Shown here: positions 1 through 64,000 of the stretch, piece after piece | Layout of the letters: every line of letters begins with the position of its first letter | Position numbering within the stretch: the stretch's first letter is position 1 | From: Haliclona indistincta | Taxonomy: Eukaryota > Porifera > Demospongiae > Haplosclerida > Chalinidae | Length of the DNA stretch: 64,000 nt | Assembly (NCBI GenBank): GCA_964017065.1 | Contig: OZ024783.1 | Span: forward strand, 6,133,572-6,197,571 | Direction of reading: 5' to 3' | The notes under the pieces: model-generated | Databases searched by the model: none | What the model was told of the DNA's origin: nothing | Seen by the model: only the letters and a program-made list of their open reading frames with translations | Position numbers and translations under genes: made by a program

Positions 1-379
1 ACAGGTTGATAGCTTCAGCAGCCATCACCATGAACACTACCAGCATGAAATAGTGTAACATGATAGAGACTATGGCACACAATGCAGGAGCACTACTGCT
101 GTGGATGGAGAAGATAAAAAATATGTATAATCCGAGTAGAGCAAAACAGAGATTGAGCAACAGCTGTCCATGATCAGAGAGACGCAGTTTCCTATAGAGC
201 ATATAAAGTTGAAGATGCTTATGAAGCATGAATAAAACTGACCGTGTGCCGATATAAGAAACTATGGTGAGTAGAAGACCAGCTATGGACAGTATCACAC
301 CAATGTATGACACAGCATCTAGGAAAAAGTCTTCAGGACGATTTGAAACAGGCGGGTCACCAAATTGTGGTGAGACATC
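1..379 (-). other. Copy A: start of seven-helix domain (cut by window edge)
   Basis: Exons 243-379 (TM1, [16 protein letters not shown]) and 1-191 (TM2-TM3, [16 protein letters not shown]), separated by a 51-nt intron that happens to stay open in frame. The remaining helices and the tail lie outside the window. Confidence 0.9.
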
Positions 380-61400: not shown

Positions 61401-64000
61401 ATCAGTGCTTGTAGCATTGCGTCCTATGATAGATCCACTGCATGTATACGTTCCAGCACTAGCAGCTGAGATGAAAGCTAGTGTCAGGTTGCAGTACAAG
61501 AGATGTGTGATCTCTGTGTTCCCTCTTGGCTGGAGTTTGGAGCAGTTGCTGACAACAGTGTGATTATTGTATCTCCACTGCATATTAAGAGCACTGTAGT
61601 CTGGTCCTATGGCGCGATTTAGCTCTCCACGACATGATAGCTCAACATTCTGATCGCCATCAACAACAATTGGAAAGTGTACTATGTCAACCCTGATCAC
61701 TGGAAAAAAAACAACTTTATAAATACACCAAGGGCACTAGTGATGTAACATAACTGTTGCATGTACAAGTATTAAAAAGTGGATTGTCATAATAAACTTA
61801 CATCTAACTGGAACTGTAGGGCATTGAACACCGGCATTTTCATTCATTGGACAGTCTCCGCTGGTGCTGTGAAGACATGATTGTAGAGTATGTTCACTTC
61901 CAGTACAGCTGACATTGGAAAGGACTGTCGGTCTCGCTACTTTTCCATAAAATGAGTTCAAGCGCACCATGGCTCCTGTATTGGTAAAATAATCGCTAGT
62001 TATAAAATGAACACCAGTGAGGATGCTTTTCATTAATATTAAGCACAACATGTTAATTACTCAAATCAGCAGATTTGAATTTAATTCCCATGCACTCCAG
62101 TGTAACATGTAAATGTAGGGAAAGAGCATTTAAATGCATGCATTGAAGCACAGTGTTATATTATTGAACACTTTCATACCAATAGTAGGGTATCCTAGTT
62201 GTCCACAGACCACTCTAGCATCGGACACGTCCCATCCATCATCACACACTGTTCCCCACTGGTTATTAACACACACTTCAACTCTGCCCTCGGTTGCATT
62301 TTGTGCACCAACAAGACGAATACTACCACTTGGACAGTCTGTAAATGAAAGGTTATAATTACGATGATAATTATGCTAGAATGATCAACAAGTCATGCAC
62401 CGCCACCAAAACACAGCTTATATAGTTATAGTGGTATACACTGATGCATTGCCCAAGGCTCTACTTGAAATTAAAAGCTAGGCTAGCTGAAGAAATAGAT
62501 GAGATAGGGGTTGACTCGTGAATACAGCAACATTTTCAACAATAACTAATGAGGGCAATGCCTGTAAGGGTTTTATGAAGTGCATGATTCACCACCAAGT
62601 AAAATGCAGGTGTTTAAATACATTTACATGAATTTTAATACAACTTATACTCACCACCATCTAAAGTGATTATATGATGTACTGGTGTTGCTGGACCATC
62701 TCCTACTGAAGTTGCTGCCCTCACTGAACAGGTGTAGTTGGTGAATGGCTGCAGTCCTGTGATGGTCAGACTGGTACTGCTGGTTCTAGTGCTGTTGATG
62801 ATGCTGCCTCCTGAGCTGCAGATGATGAGATAGCTGATGATGACTCCATTACGTTGTGAGAGGAGAGGAGGAGACCAGGAGAGAGCGAGTTTATGAGAAG
62901 TGGCTGAGAAACTGAAGTTTTGAGGTTGTCCACTAGGAACTGTACAAAAAATGAATATCAAAAATAAATAGCCTCACCATCTTGTTGGGTAGTCACACTG
63001 ATAGTTTCTGGTGGTCCTTCTCTAATGCCTGTGATGTTACAAGAGTAGTTTGTGTATGGTAAAAGTCCTTTAAGTGTAGTTGTGTTCTGTGAATTATTGA
63101 AGTTCAGTCTGTGTGTTACTCCAGTTTCAGGTGATGAGCATTGAAAAGCGTAGTTTGTAACCATATCTTTAATGTCTTGAGGTGGTTTCCAAGTGAATGT
63201 GATTGATGTTGGATCAATAGATACACCTTTAAAATCAGTAGGTTGTACTGATAATAACAAGAGTAGTTATGTAAGTACACGAACATGCATGTGTTTGTTC
63301 ACCTATTTTTAAAGTGTTCACACTGGTATTTGCTGGAGAACCTTTTCCTCCAACACTGCTGTAAGCTATAATACTACAGGAATAGTTGGTGTTTGGTATG
63401 AGTCCTTCAACTGTGGTTGTGGTCTGTGAGGCTCTAAGAATGAGCTTGAGTGCCTTTTCACCTTCTGTAAAGCACTGAATAGTATAGTTAGCAAGATAGT
63501 GAATAAGTAAAGGGGGGTTCCATGAAAGTATGATAGTTTTGGAACTGTTTGAAGTACCCGTAAACTCAATTGGAGGCCCTGGAACTAAAACAAGTAATTG
63601 ATACATTGTGGGACGCATTATTGTTCGACAAACTTACCATCACCAACAATTCCACTAAAATTAGCTGATGGTGGACCAAATTCTGCAACTACAGTTCGAG
63701 CACGAACAAAACAAGTATATTTGGAAGCTATTTCAAAATTTCCATCTACCCAAGTGATCTTAGTGAGTGTAGAACGAATAAAATTGTTTATATCACAGAA
63801 AGCTCTATATTCAATGATGATTCCATTACGTTGTGAGAAAAGAGGAGGAGACCAGGTAAGATTAAGTACCCCATAGGAGGTGGTTAAAACAGTAAAGTTC
63901 TGAGGTGGTCCACTGGGAACTTTAAAATAGCAATGTAATTATGACAATGAAATATTTATAACACTAACCATCTTGTGCTGTGATCACAATGGTTGTTGCT
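48880..64000 (-). CDS. Copy C: giant adhesion GPCR, 5' end outside window
   Basis: Third paralogue, cut by the right edge inside an FN3 exon (63969-64000 is its C-terminal end). About 3,900 codons lie within the window. Order read here: FN3 (partial) plus four FN3, SRCR, Ig x4, FN3 x8, SRCR, Ig x4, FN3 x4, Ig x2, EGF, Ig, HormR-like plus GAIN, GPS, 7TM and tail, stop at 48880. The FN3n-SRCR-Ig4 block is tandemly duplicated with a period of about 4.8 kb, and the two copies of the FN3 segment (58434-59200 and 63235-64000) are almost identical. The signal peptide, SMB domain and first Ig cluster are presumed to lie beyond 64000. The tail is identical in protein sequence to copy B. Function as for copy B. 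Confidence 0.9.
49480..50436 (-). other. Copy C: seven-transmembrane domain
   Basis: Exons 50300-50436, 49987-50249, 49865-49931 and the start of the last exon from 49813. The intron in loop 1 is 50 nt here; reading through it would shift the frame, which confirms it is spliced. Confidence 0.92.
50489..50701 (-). other. Copy C: GPS motif and tethered agonist
   Basis: Exons 50650-50701 and 50489-50601 with FWD, GWSSEGC and [13 protein letters not shown], fully conserved. Confidence 0.95.
50754..52316 (-). other. Copy C: hormone-receptor-like segment and GAIN domain
   Basis: Exons 52243-52316, 52107-52183, 51884-52041, 51557-51813, 51379-51510, 51235-51329 and 50754-51177, with lengths identical to copies A and B. 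Confidence 0.78.
52378..52653 (-). other. Copy C: membrane-proximal Ig domain
   Basis: I-set-like exon with both core Cys ([16 protein letters not shown]) and IIWYKDG. Confidence 0.9.
52713..52832 (-). other. Copy C: EGF-like domain
   Basis: 120-nt exon, six Cys, with [14 protein letters not shown] at the start. Confidence 0.92.
52889..53608 (-). other. Copy C: two Ig domains
   Basis: Exons 53309-53608 and 52889-53236. The first lacks one codon relative to A and B (NFTTSSGM for NFTNKSSGM). Confidence 0.87.
53661..55007 (-). other. Copy C: four FN3 domains
   Basis: Exons 54660-55007, 54328-54603, 53991-54272 and 53661-53939, the same cluster as in copies A and B. Confidence 0.9.
55069..56532 (-). 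other. Copy C block 2: four Ig domains
   Basis: Exons 56212-56532, 55831-56151, 55465-55776 and 55069-55407. The first two encode proteins matching those of copy A at 6455-6775 and 6074-6394. Confidence 0.88.
56637..57176 (-). other. Copy C block 2: SRCR domain
   Basis: Exons 57018-57176 ([15 protein letters not shown]) and 56637-56810 ([22 protein letters not shown]). Intron between them 207 nt. Confidence 0.88.
57177..57506. other. Copy C block 2 intron between FN3 and SRCR
   Basis: 330-nt intron matching the one in copies A and B. No gene seen. Confidence 0.5.
57507..60182 (-). other. Copy C block 2: eight FN3 domains
   Basis: Exons 59838-60182, 59501-59776, 59168-59443, 58837-59118, 58502-58783, 58177-58446, 57854-58138 and 57507-57791. 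The last exon has PLPPQRNG in place of PLLSQRNG. Confidence 0.89.
60233..61699 (-). other. Copy C block 1: four Ig domains
   Basis: Exons 61379-61699, 60995-61318, 60629-60940 and 60233-60574. The last two match the fused exon of copy B but keep a 54-nt intron between them (60575-60628). Confidence 0.88.
61802..62338 (-). other. Copy C block 1: SRCR domain
   Basis: Exons 62180-62338 and 61802-61975 with [33 protein letters not shown] and AGVQC. Confidence 0.88.
62339..62654. other. Copy C block 1 intron between FN3 and SRCR
   Basis: 316-nt intron, slightly shortened relative to the other three occurrences (the repeat-like GTCACATCAAGGTTGC part is lost). No gene seen. Confidence 0.45.
62655..64000 (-). 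other. Copy C block 1: FN3 domains (first one cut by edge)
   Basis: Exons 63969-64000 (partial), 63638-63919, 63303-63584, 62978-63247 and 62655-62939. The last is a hybrid: its N-terminal half matches the seventh FN3 of the other arrays ([15 protein letters not shown]) and its C-terminal end matches the eighth (PVHHIITLD), so one FN3 is missing. Confidence 0.87.

Follow-up and report, generated by a model that had tools for sequence, protein, structure and literature searches.

Tandem giant adhesion GPCRs of the sponge Haliclona indistincta and a second array, mostly of predicted single-pass receptors, that shares their immunoglobulin cassettes

Adhesion G protein-coupled receptors (GPCRs) are mainly known from development and tissue mechanics. 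The window analysed here, a stretch of 64,000 nucleotides from the demosponge Haliclona indistincta, holds giant adhesion GPCR genes lying head to tail on the minus strand, and raises the question of whether such genes form an ordinary adhesion family or a variable, immune-type recognition system. One gene is complete (gene B) and two are cut by the window edges (genes C and A; Table 1), while a fourth giant, gene D, lies just beyond the window and ends at +76141. The three paralogues recognised in the first-pass annotation are borne out by the gene models, which were built with a purpose-written splice finder and a tblastn map of 22 modules. The splice finder succeeded with a second-order coding model; a retrained fourth-order model drifted into one gene of 322-398 exons, and other settings lost SRCR, EGF and other exons.

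Table 1. Predicted features of genes C, B and A in window coordinates.
Feature	Position	Strand	Evidence
Gene C, adhesion GPCR: 22 Ig/Ig-like, 14 FN3, 3 SRCR	1..25552	-	gene model, module map
Gene C final 1.2 kb (TM5-7, tail, stop at -1178)	left of window	-	
Gene C GPS, tethered-agonist segment, first transmembrane exons	1..645	-	gene model
Gene C FN3 g h x, Ig I1, Ig I2, EGF, Ig I3	2316..4546	-	gene model, module map
Gene C proximal cassette Ia Ib Ic Ie FN3(f)	4602..6775	-	module map
Gene C FN3 run g h i j k l l + SRCR	6880..10018	-	module map
Gene C cassette 3: Ia Ib Ic Id Ie FN3(f), without SRCR	10074..12277	-	module map
Gene C cassette 2: Ia Ib Ic Id Ie FN3(f) SRCR	13821..16627	-	module map
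Gene C cassette 1: Ia Ib Ic Id Ie FN3(f) SRCR	16687..19461	-	module map
Gene C somatomedin-B-like head exon	25397..25552	-	gene model; Pfam silent at E 0.1
Gene B, adhesion GPCR, SMB to stop complete: 11 Ig/Ig-like, 12 FN3, 1 SRCR, 1 EGF; 3519 aa predicted	29126..42579	-	
Gene B cytoplasmic tail: YTTV, YEEV, YELV, YEVI, C-terminal TTDL	29126..29689	-	
Gene B seven-transmembrane region	29690..30685	-	Pfam 7tm_2 1.9e-27
Gene B GPS with [13 protein letters not shown]	30738..30957	-	Pfam GPS 2e-14
Gene B HRM-like region + stretch of expected GAIN	31009..32568	-	gene model; HRM weak, Pfam GAIN silent
Gene B FN3 g h x, Ig I1, Ig I2, EGF, Ig I3	32619..34851	-	gene model, Pfam, module map
Gene B proximal cassette Ia Ib Ic Ie FN3(f)	34906..36769	-	gene model, module map
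Gene B FN3 run g h i j k l l + SRCR	36869..40042	-	SRCR Pfam 6.5e-27
Gene B distal cassette Ia Ib Ic Ie FN3(f); Ic + Ie in one fused exon, 40502-41137	40104..41871	-	gene model, module map
Gene B somatomedin-B-like head exon	42433..42579	-	Pfam E 0.25, under cut-off
Gene A, whole gene: 15 Ig/Ig-like, 19 FN3, 2 SRCR	48880..64000, head to 67115 right of window	-	
Gene A cytoplasmic tail, protein identical to B and D tails	48880..49443	-	
Gene A proximal cassette Ia Ib Ic Ie FN3(f)	54660..56532	-	gene model, module map
Gene A middle cassette Ia Ib Ic Ie FN3(f), FN3 g h i j k l l, SRCR	56637..61699	-	
Gene A distal FN3 run (part) + SRCR	61802..64000	-	gene model, module map

The predicted order in these proteins is a somatomedin-B-like head, Ig, FN3 and SRCR modules on mostly phase-1 exons, EGF, GPS (HL↓T), 7TM and tail. 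Nearly all module exons are symmetric (26/26 in B, 37/39 in A, 40/44 in C and 41/43 in D). Lengths of about 3,500 to more than 5,000 residues had been estimated, and the models give 3519 to 5362 aa (A 4716, D 4991), although the upper figure, that of gene C, is inflated by spurious small exons within long introns. The expected range of 11-22 Ig or Ig-like modules (D 22) stood in the module map; those given for FN3 (12-17) and SRCR (1-4) held at their lower ends and were revised at their upper ends to 12-19 (D 13) and 1-3 (D 3). The FN3 count of 19 in gene A replaces a raw map count of 20, since one frameshifted exon matched twice. Signal peptide exons and 5' ends were sought for A-D, and none could be joined with confidence.

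The 7tm_2 match of gene B scored 96.6 bits (cut-off 20.6), placing it among adhesion GPCRs (class B2), and CRCNHLT, which fits the H-L/M-T/S cleavage site, is present in A-D. The 7TM and GPS parts of the core proposed earlier are thereby confirmed by Pfam in gene B. From the family, we take HL↓T to be the predicted autoproteolysis site, TNFAILL the tethered agonist and TTDL a PDZ ligand. EGF was matched at E 1e-5 and HRM at E 0.002, the latter under its cut-off, and the Pfam GAIN model found no match in the gene B search. The somatomedin-B head claimed for these genes is similar in cysteine spacing by eye, and we assign it presumptively from that spacing; the gene B module reached 12.1 bits against a Pfam cut-off of 23.1, and for the C and D copies Pfam was silent at E 0.1. 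Of the eight Ig types, Id and Ie were without a Pfam match. Their AlphaFold models are mostly beta at low confidence (mean pLDDT 57 and 51), and both are called Ig-like solely from size, cysteines and predicted beta content. Comparison of the tail exon and three further ORFs with NCBIfam was negative, Rfam returned nothing above gathering across the window, and the ORFs at 20905-21387, 21816-22301 and 47665-48036 (minus strand) and 26774-27286 (plus strand) had no Pfam match at E 0.1. Homologues are present in ENA contigs.

The four giants belong to a larger array on contig C1, where the TM5-7/tail exon occurs in 15 near-complete copies within 390 kb (C1:5.95-6.34 Mb), ten on the plus strand followed by five on the minus strand, short stop-bearing matches at C1:6115419, 6007895 and 6348041 being excluded from this count. 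Two more copies lie on C10 at 92-93%. The module strings of A, B, C and D are all different; aligned blocks among copies diverge by 1-14%, many by 4-14%, and adjoining genes are 96% identical across stretches of 12-14 kb. Blocks 62648-65375 and 57847-60570 of gene A are 99.1% identical, and blocks 38113-43215 and 62648-67751 are 99.2% identical, both of which point to recent cassette gain. The longest concordant runs extend over 50 sites for A-C and 65 for A-D, against permutation means of about 9 (p 0.0005), and the mosaic test gave p <= 0.011 in 6/6 pairs. Neighbouring gene models differ by gain or loss of whole cassettes, with mosaic identity tracts, and the copy-number variability first ascribed to the modules holds in this form.

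The Ig modules also recur in a second array. In C10:6.10-6.50 Mb (393 kb), Ie and Ic are each found at 33 places, and the array ends comprise 26 predicted single-pass tail exons and one fragment, as against three GPCR ends; two 20-kb stretches were read here, and the remainder comes from exon matches. One FN3-to-TM splice is predicted in phase, and a single membrane pass is predicted for most members of the C10 array. In each of the two C10 GPCRs read, an Ie falls among C10-array copies, and the proximal Ie of one of them groups with the four C1 proximal copies (support 0.953) in an analysis that left out the partial copy C10:6281856 owing to its length. Searches of open-access papers brought up no sponge in which adhesion GPCRs and single-pass receptors had been reported to share cassettes.

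Both kinds of receptor carry tyrosine motifs in their tails. The core Yxx(I/L/V) is found in 14/17 GPCR tails and in 21/21 single-pass tails (21 read of 40). Among the aligned GPCR tails, from which those of 5/22 closer family copies are absent (C1:6337627 and four on C7), YEx(V/I) occurs in 14/17, with at least three per tail in 12/17; the single-pass tails hold Y(D/E)(V/I)(V/I) and NPAY in 21/21 and YEMV in 19/21. Against shuffles, motif counts reached p <0.05 in 7/14 GPCR tail rows (A-D 0.024), and in single-pass tails p was 0.036-0.14 in 17/21 and 0.003, 0.22, 0.57 and 0.58 in the others. Significance within single tails is weak, and the case for the motifs lies in their conservation among related copies. 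SH2 has 90 matches genome-wide. A scan of 18 GPCR tail rows found no canonical ITAM (YxxL/I x6-12 YxxL/I) and one canonical ITIM, (S/I/V/L)xYxx(I/L/V), in the distant C10:6356853 copy, and assignment of the array GPCR tails to the canonical ITIM/ITAM immunoreceptor class was rejected. By eye, 2/21 single-pass tails read VSYEMV, fitting ITIM.

Selection differs along the receptors. Among A-D, TM5-7 has 33 silent and 0 replacement differences and the tail 25 and 3, compared with 112 and 212 in the proximal Ig cassette (dN/dS 0.63), counts that sum over non-independent pairs; dN/dS was 0.30 for FN3, 0.17 for SRCR and 0.19 for I1-I3 with EGF. Fisher tests on 4/6 pairs taken singly gave p 9.5e-5 to 1.5e-3. 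These values support the view that the recognition end of A-D evolves much faster than the signalling end. Clustered paralogues with a fast ectodomain and a conserved signalling end, as looked for in an allorecognition locus, are found in A-D only: tail dN/dS is 0.69 and 0.86 in two plus-strand groups, and the frozen tail is limited to A-D. The dN/dS of every whole module is <1 (0.42-0.91), so relaxed constraint can explain most cassette change. Replacements nevertheless cluster in short windows (permutation p 0.0035 and 0.0075 for Ie, 0.01 for Ib; 6/15 module sets at p <0.02, uncorrected). In an eight-codon Ie patch of nine C10 copies, pN is 0.124 and pS 0.003, as against 0.019 and 0.034 outside, the p of 0.0075 coming from six of the nine. 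In C1, the same patch has pN 0.204 vs pS 0.177, and the most replacement-rich Ie window lies elsewhere, at codons 62-69.

On balance, the C1 GPCR and C10 arrays appear to share a variable cell-surface recognition kit with two kinds of output, a reading of moderate confidence. The shared Ig cassettes would constitute this kit on GPCR and single-pass receptors alike. In the GPCR branch, cassette binding would be read out by G proteins via the tethered agonist, while SH2 proteins could dock on the predicted phosphotyrosine motifs to provide a tyrosine output. Cassette number and patch variation may alter ligand choice, the ligands may sit on other cells (own, foreign or microbial), and both receptor classes may answer related ligands with different outputs, like paired immune receptors. 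The KIR, LILR and CEA families similarly place very similar ectodomains on different signalling ends, a likeness for which no homology is claimed, and they are not known to have a GPCR output. A stronger version is unlikely, in which the arrays form a sponge immune or histocompatibility complex: one pool of hypervariable Ig cassettes would pass from chromosome to chromosome and feed two outputs, one a self-cleaving GPCR and the other a single-pass receptor with a tyrosine tail, and the adhesion GPCRs would be genuine polymorphic self/non-self receptors. Should the arrays turn out to be polymorphic, recognition by Ig domains coupled to tyrosine motifs would extend as far down as sponges. Adhesion GPCRs would then have an immune-type function as well, a single recognition kit serving both signalling ends. 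Both loci offer exact targets for studies of sponge self/non-self recognition. The aggregation factors are among the molecules proposed for sponge self-recognition; these are extracellular proteoglycans rather than receptors, and their domains differ from those of the arrays.

The first-pass annotation had read the domain combination, with its copy-number-variable Ig/FN3/SRCR modules, as immune- or allorecognition-like. The combination of domains alone is not new, since SRCR-bearing adhesion GPCRs are in print: Amphimedon queenslandica has Aq712029 and Aq715659, whose SRCR repeats were called unique in adhesion GPCRs, and a figure legend of that study also names Ig, fn3, EGF, HRM and GPS (Krishnan et al., 2014; PMC4302439). 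The passages of that paper on these receptors describe adjacent gene clusters for rhodopsin-type receptors only, and are silent on arrays of adhesion GPCRs, changes in module number, repeated tail tyrosines and sharing with single-pass receptors (PMC4302439), all of which are found here. The immune-type reading is partly supported, with allorecognition as one possible role: modules vary by whole cassettes and, among A-D, the ectodomain changes faster than the signalling end; it gains further weight from the sharing of Ig modules with the predicted single-pass tyrosine-tailed array and from the hypervariable patch. Hydractinia Alr and Botryllus FcoR are recognition receptor families that likewise have tail tyrosine motifs, FcoR being of the Ig-type single-pass kind with tails that can hold core Y-x-x-(I/L/V) (PMC12065747). 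In the sections of that review on these families, ITIM, ITAM or hemITAM are named (PMC12065747), whereas here the Ig modules also stand on a 7TM GPCR. Alr and FcoR have known polymorphism and genetics; the present arrays are known from the sequence of one genome. According to the same review, the proteins put forward for allorecognition in sponges, cnidarians and ascidians are not conserved among the three groups (PMC12065747). The main text of an Amphimedon graft transcriptome study does not mention GPCR, G protein, SRCR, immunoglobulin, tyrosine kinase or scavenger (PMC5450542).

An alternative that is rather unlikely, though to be taken seriously, is that these are pattern-recognition receptors for bacteria or symbionts instead of self/non-self, with SRCR and Ig binding microbes and the array tracking the microbial community. 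SRCR is abundant in the genome (at least 161 matches), vertebrate SRCR repeats are described in part of the GPCR survey as often linked to immunity (PMC4302439), and an account of Aplysina aerophoba includes SRCR and GPCR genes that shift expression after microbial patterns (PMC6208332). However, SRCR is the least changed cassette part in the proximal comparison, with a dN/dS of 0.17 there and 0.42-0.51 across all copies, and it was unmatched in five plus-strand GPCRs of the examined C1 stretch and in one of the two C10 GPCRs read. Present sequence data do not separate a microbial from a cell-cell role.

It is also improbable that the arrays merely reflect expansion of an adhesion or matrix-sensing family with no recognition role, in which modules changed neutrally by tandem duplication and unequal crossing-over while the 7TM remained under ordinary purifying selection. 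The dN/dS below 1 in every module, the symmetric exons, which ease neutral gain and loss, the weak motif significance in many single tails and the unconserved plus-strand tails all agree with such a history, and developmental adhesion GPCRs commonly contain EGF, FN3 and HRM-like parts. It accounts less readily for the clustering of replacements, with the C10 patch nearly devoid of silent change, for Ig modules common to a tyrosine-tailed array on another contig, or for TM5-7 of A-D with no replacement at similar silent divergence.

Decay of the array, with several copies being pseudogenes, is very unlikely: a 4-bp frameshift insertion in the first FN3 exon of gene A (beyond the window), the stop-bearing C1 matches and one internal stop in the first gene C model would fit it, but the B and D models have no internal stop, symmetric exons could be skipped, and TM5-7 is unaltered in protein in four copies. 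Least probable of all is that haplotypes or collapsed repeats were laid end to end as false tandem copies of a single gene, as the 99% identical blocks and the 96% identity of adjoining genes might suggest, given that exons identical to those of the window occur on a 296,774-base contig in the protein database (a record that may come from the same individual), that all four module strings differ, that many aligned blocks are 4-14% apart, and that relatives are found on C7, on C10 and far along C1.

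The genes of this locus and of a second array on contig C10 are best read as carrying a variable recognition ectodomain of interchangeable cassettes, joined to a self-cleaving GPCR end on contig OZ024783.1 (C1) and mostly to a tyrosine-tailed end on C10. The window, C1:6133572-6197571, and 100 kb of flank (164 kb in all), from a genome of 46 contigs and 144 Mb, were analysed by splice-aware gene finding and by mapping of modules, which placed four genes head to tail on the minus strand. Gene B lies entirely inside the window, gene C is truncated by 1.2 kb of its 3′ end at the left edge, and the head of gene A lies beyond the right edge. 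After their module strings, all four genes run on into the GPS, 7TM, and tail. Pfam backs Ia-Ic, I1-I3, FN3, SRCR, EGF, GPS, and 7tm_2; Id and Ie have no Pfam match, and the SMB and HRM scores fall under the cut-off. All 26 module exons of B are symmetric phase-1 exons, as are 37 of the 39 of A, 40 of the 44 of C, and 41 of the 43 of D. The frameshifted FN3 exon of gene A has symmetric relatives, so that skipping could preserve the frame. The segment in the long 5′ intron of gene C is part of a young high-copy interspersed repeat, because at least 32 near-full genome copies at 95-98% identity were found with 40 of 3359 candidates scored.

Features of the receptor loci (module strings from the module map, read from the head; a-e, Ig or Ig-like; f-x, FN3; S, SRCR)
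Feature	Position	Content
Gene C		SMB [a b c d e f S][a b c d e f S][a b c d e f] g h i j k l l S [a b c e f] g h x I1 I2 EGF I3
Gene B		SMB [a b c e f] g h i j k l l S [a b c e f] g h x I1 I2 EGF I3
Gene A		SMB [a b c e f] g h i j k l S [a b c e f] g h i j k l l S [a b c e f] g h x I1 I2 EGF I3
Gene D		like C, with FN3 run g h l h l l
L011, piece right of window	~64.6-65.0 kb	4-bp frameshift insertion, first FN3 exon of gene A
Intron segment	window 21000-21904	between SMB exon and next exon of gene C
Microsatellite	window 26954-27067	perfect CT, 57 copies, between genes C and B
Single-pass gene (predicted)	within C10:6282001-6302000	tail TYEMV...EYDII...NPAYSVH
TM/tail exon pairs	C10:6186197 + 6187083; 6242111 + 6243014	starts 0.9 kb apart
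Diverged TM exons	C10, past GPCR ends 6231402 and 6306587	2.5-5 kb past the ends
Outlying locus	C1:5374013-5376539, minus strand	SMB, Ic, Ie matches
7tm_2 group	C3:8112583-8222623, plus strand only	sixteen matches in 110 kb, open frames 444-481 codons

Across the 3′ part shared by genes A-D, identity in 250-base windows ranges from about 90 to 100%, and which two copies are closest switches along the alignment. Concordant runs of polymorphic sites exceed the permutation expectation in all six pairs, and the array genes hold internal blocks at 99% identity. These long runs and near-identical blocks point to unequal crossing-over and gene conversion acting on whole cassettes.

At a silent divergence of 0.03-0.11, and summed over the six non-independent pairs of A-D, TM5-7 holds 0 replacement and 33 silent differences, the tail 3 and 25, and the proximal Ig cassette 212 and 112; four of the six pairs were tested singly, and the difference holds in each of them (p 9.5e-5 to 1.5e-3). 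On the other side of the balance, no whole module was found with dN/dS >1. The tail of the plus-strand groups is not frozen (dN/dS 0.69 and 0.86). Within Ie, an eight-codon patch begins two residues past a cysteine; among nine C10 copies nearly all of its differences are replacements (pN 0.124, pS 0.003; rest of the module 0.019 and 0.034). For 13 C1 copies the patch gives 0.204 and 0.177 and the rest 0.063 and 0.131, and the richest window lies elsewhere, at codons 62-69. The best window reaches a permutation p <0.02, as a single-test value over 15 tests, in 6 of 15 module sets (Ib, Ie, Ff, Fh, Fl, and C10 Ie); that of Ff sits at the exon end and contains gaps.

The second array, C10:6.10-6.50 Mb, holds 33 of the 56 Ie matches in the genome (6 in the rest of C10, 14 on C1, and 3 on C7) and 34 of 59 Ic matches, at 33 places. 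Three window-type GPCR ends occur there, as do 26 of the 40 genome matches to a single-pass TM/tail exon, plus one fragment; the membrane segment of this exon is predicted, as judged by eye. One gene is predicted to run in phase from FN3 into this TM/tail exon, which encodes a hydrophobic segment and a short tail. Among the 21 of 40 single-pass tails examined, Y(D/E)(V/I)(V/I) and NPAY are found in all 21 and YEMV in 19, and NPAY recurs in 17 of 20 database proteins with this exon. Several of the 20 stand at 66-69% identity; the 40 genome matches, short pieces aside, lie at ≥73% or ≤57%, and since the intermediate band is vacant, these proteins may derive from another species or individual. 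The paired and diverged TM exons on C10 are possible alternative 3′ ends. Of 17 aligned GPCR tails, 14 carry YEx(V/I) and 12 have at least three copies of it, and Y(E/D)xPhi is present in two or more copies in 9 of 78 database homologues. YEMV and YEVI are common to both receptor classes.

The Ie tree comprised 22 copies: 13 from A-D, six from the C10 array, and three from C10 GPCRs. For four of the array copies, a single-pass tail exon is 1.5-2.8 kb away; copy L080 lies 5 kb upstream of the diverged GPCR end, and no end was found near copy L076. Each C10 GPCR examined has one Ie that clusters with these array copies (local support 0.77-0.80), and the proximal Ie of one groups with the four C1 proximal copies (support 0.953). 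These placements suggest that cassettes moved between the C1 and C10 loci, and we infer movement between the GPCR and single-pass classes.

In the proposed mechanism, the tethered agonist would be pulled off when a ligand is bound, and SH2 proteins would be recruited to the tail tyrosines; the genome has 90 SH2 domain matches. G-protein use, phosphorylation, and the ligand are likewise putative. The role, also conjectural, may be self/non-self recognition, symbiont sensing, or plain adhesion. Adhesion GPCRs bearing SRCR, as here, have been published from Amphimedon (PMC4302439). Recognition receptors with tail tyrosine motifs have been published from Hydractinia and Botryllus (PMC12065747). 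In the literature searches made, no case came up of a single cassette pool shared by a GPCR and a single-pass receptor.

The family extends over C1:5.95-6.34 Mb, with 15 near-complete TM5-7/tail exon copies, ten on the plus strand followed by five on the minus strand. Further copies are found at C1:13.19 Mb; C10 has two at 92-93% and one at 45%, and C7 has four at 55-63%. Of five plus-strand copies within the 164 kb, three have FN3 runs, I1-I3, and EGF, one has a single FN3, I2, EGF, and I3, and one has the GPS and last exon only; SMB, Ia-Ie, and SRCR are unmatched in all five at E 1e-6. The outlying minus-strand locus on C1, far off the array, is likely another gene of this type. The C3 group is a tandem expansion of its own, made up of class-B-like receptors that seem to lack introns across the matched part. 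SRCR gives at least 161 matches genome-wide, with 150 of 1669 candidates scored, including groups at C2:12.33 Mb, C8:8.14 Mb, and C10:5.3-5.5 Mb; copies with equal scores lie at C1:11.87-11.90 Mb.
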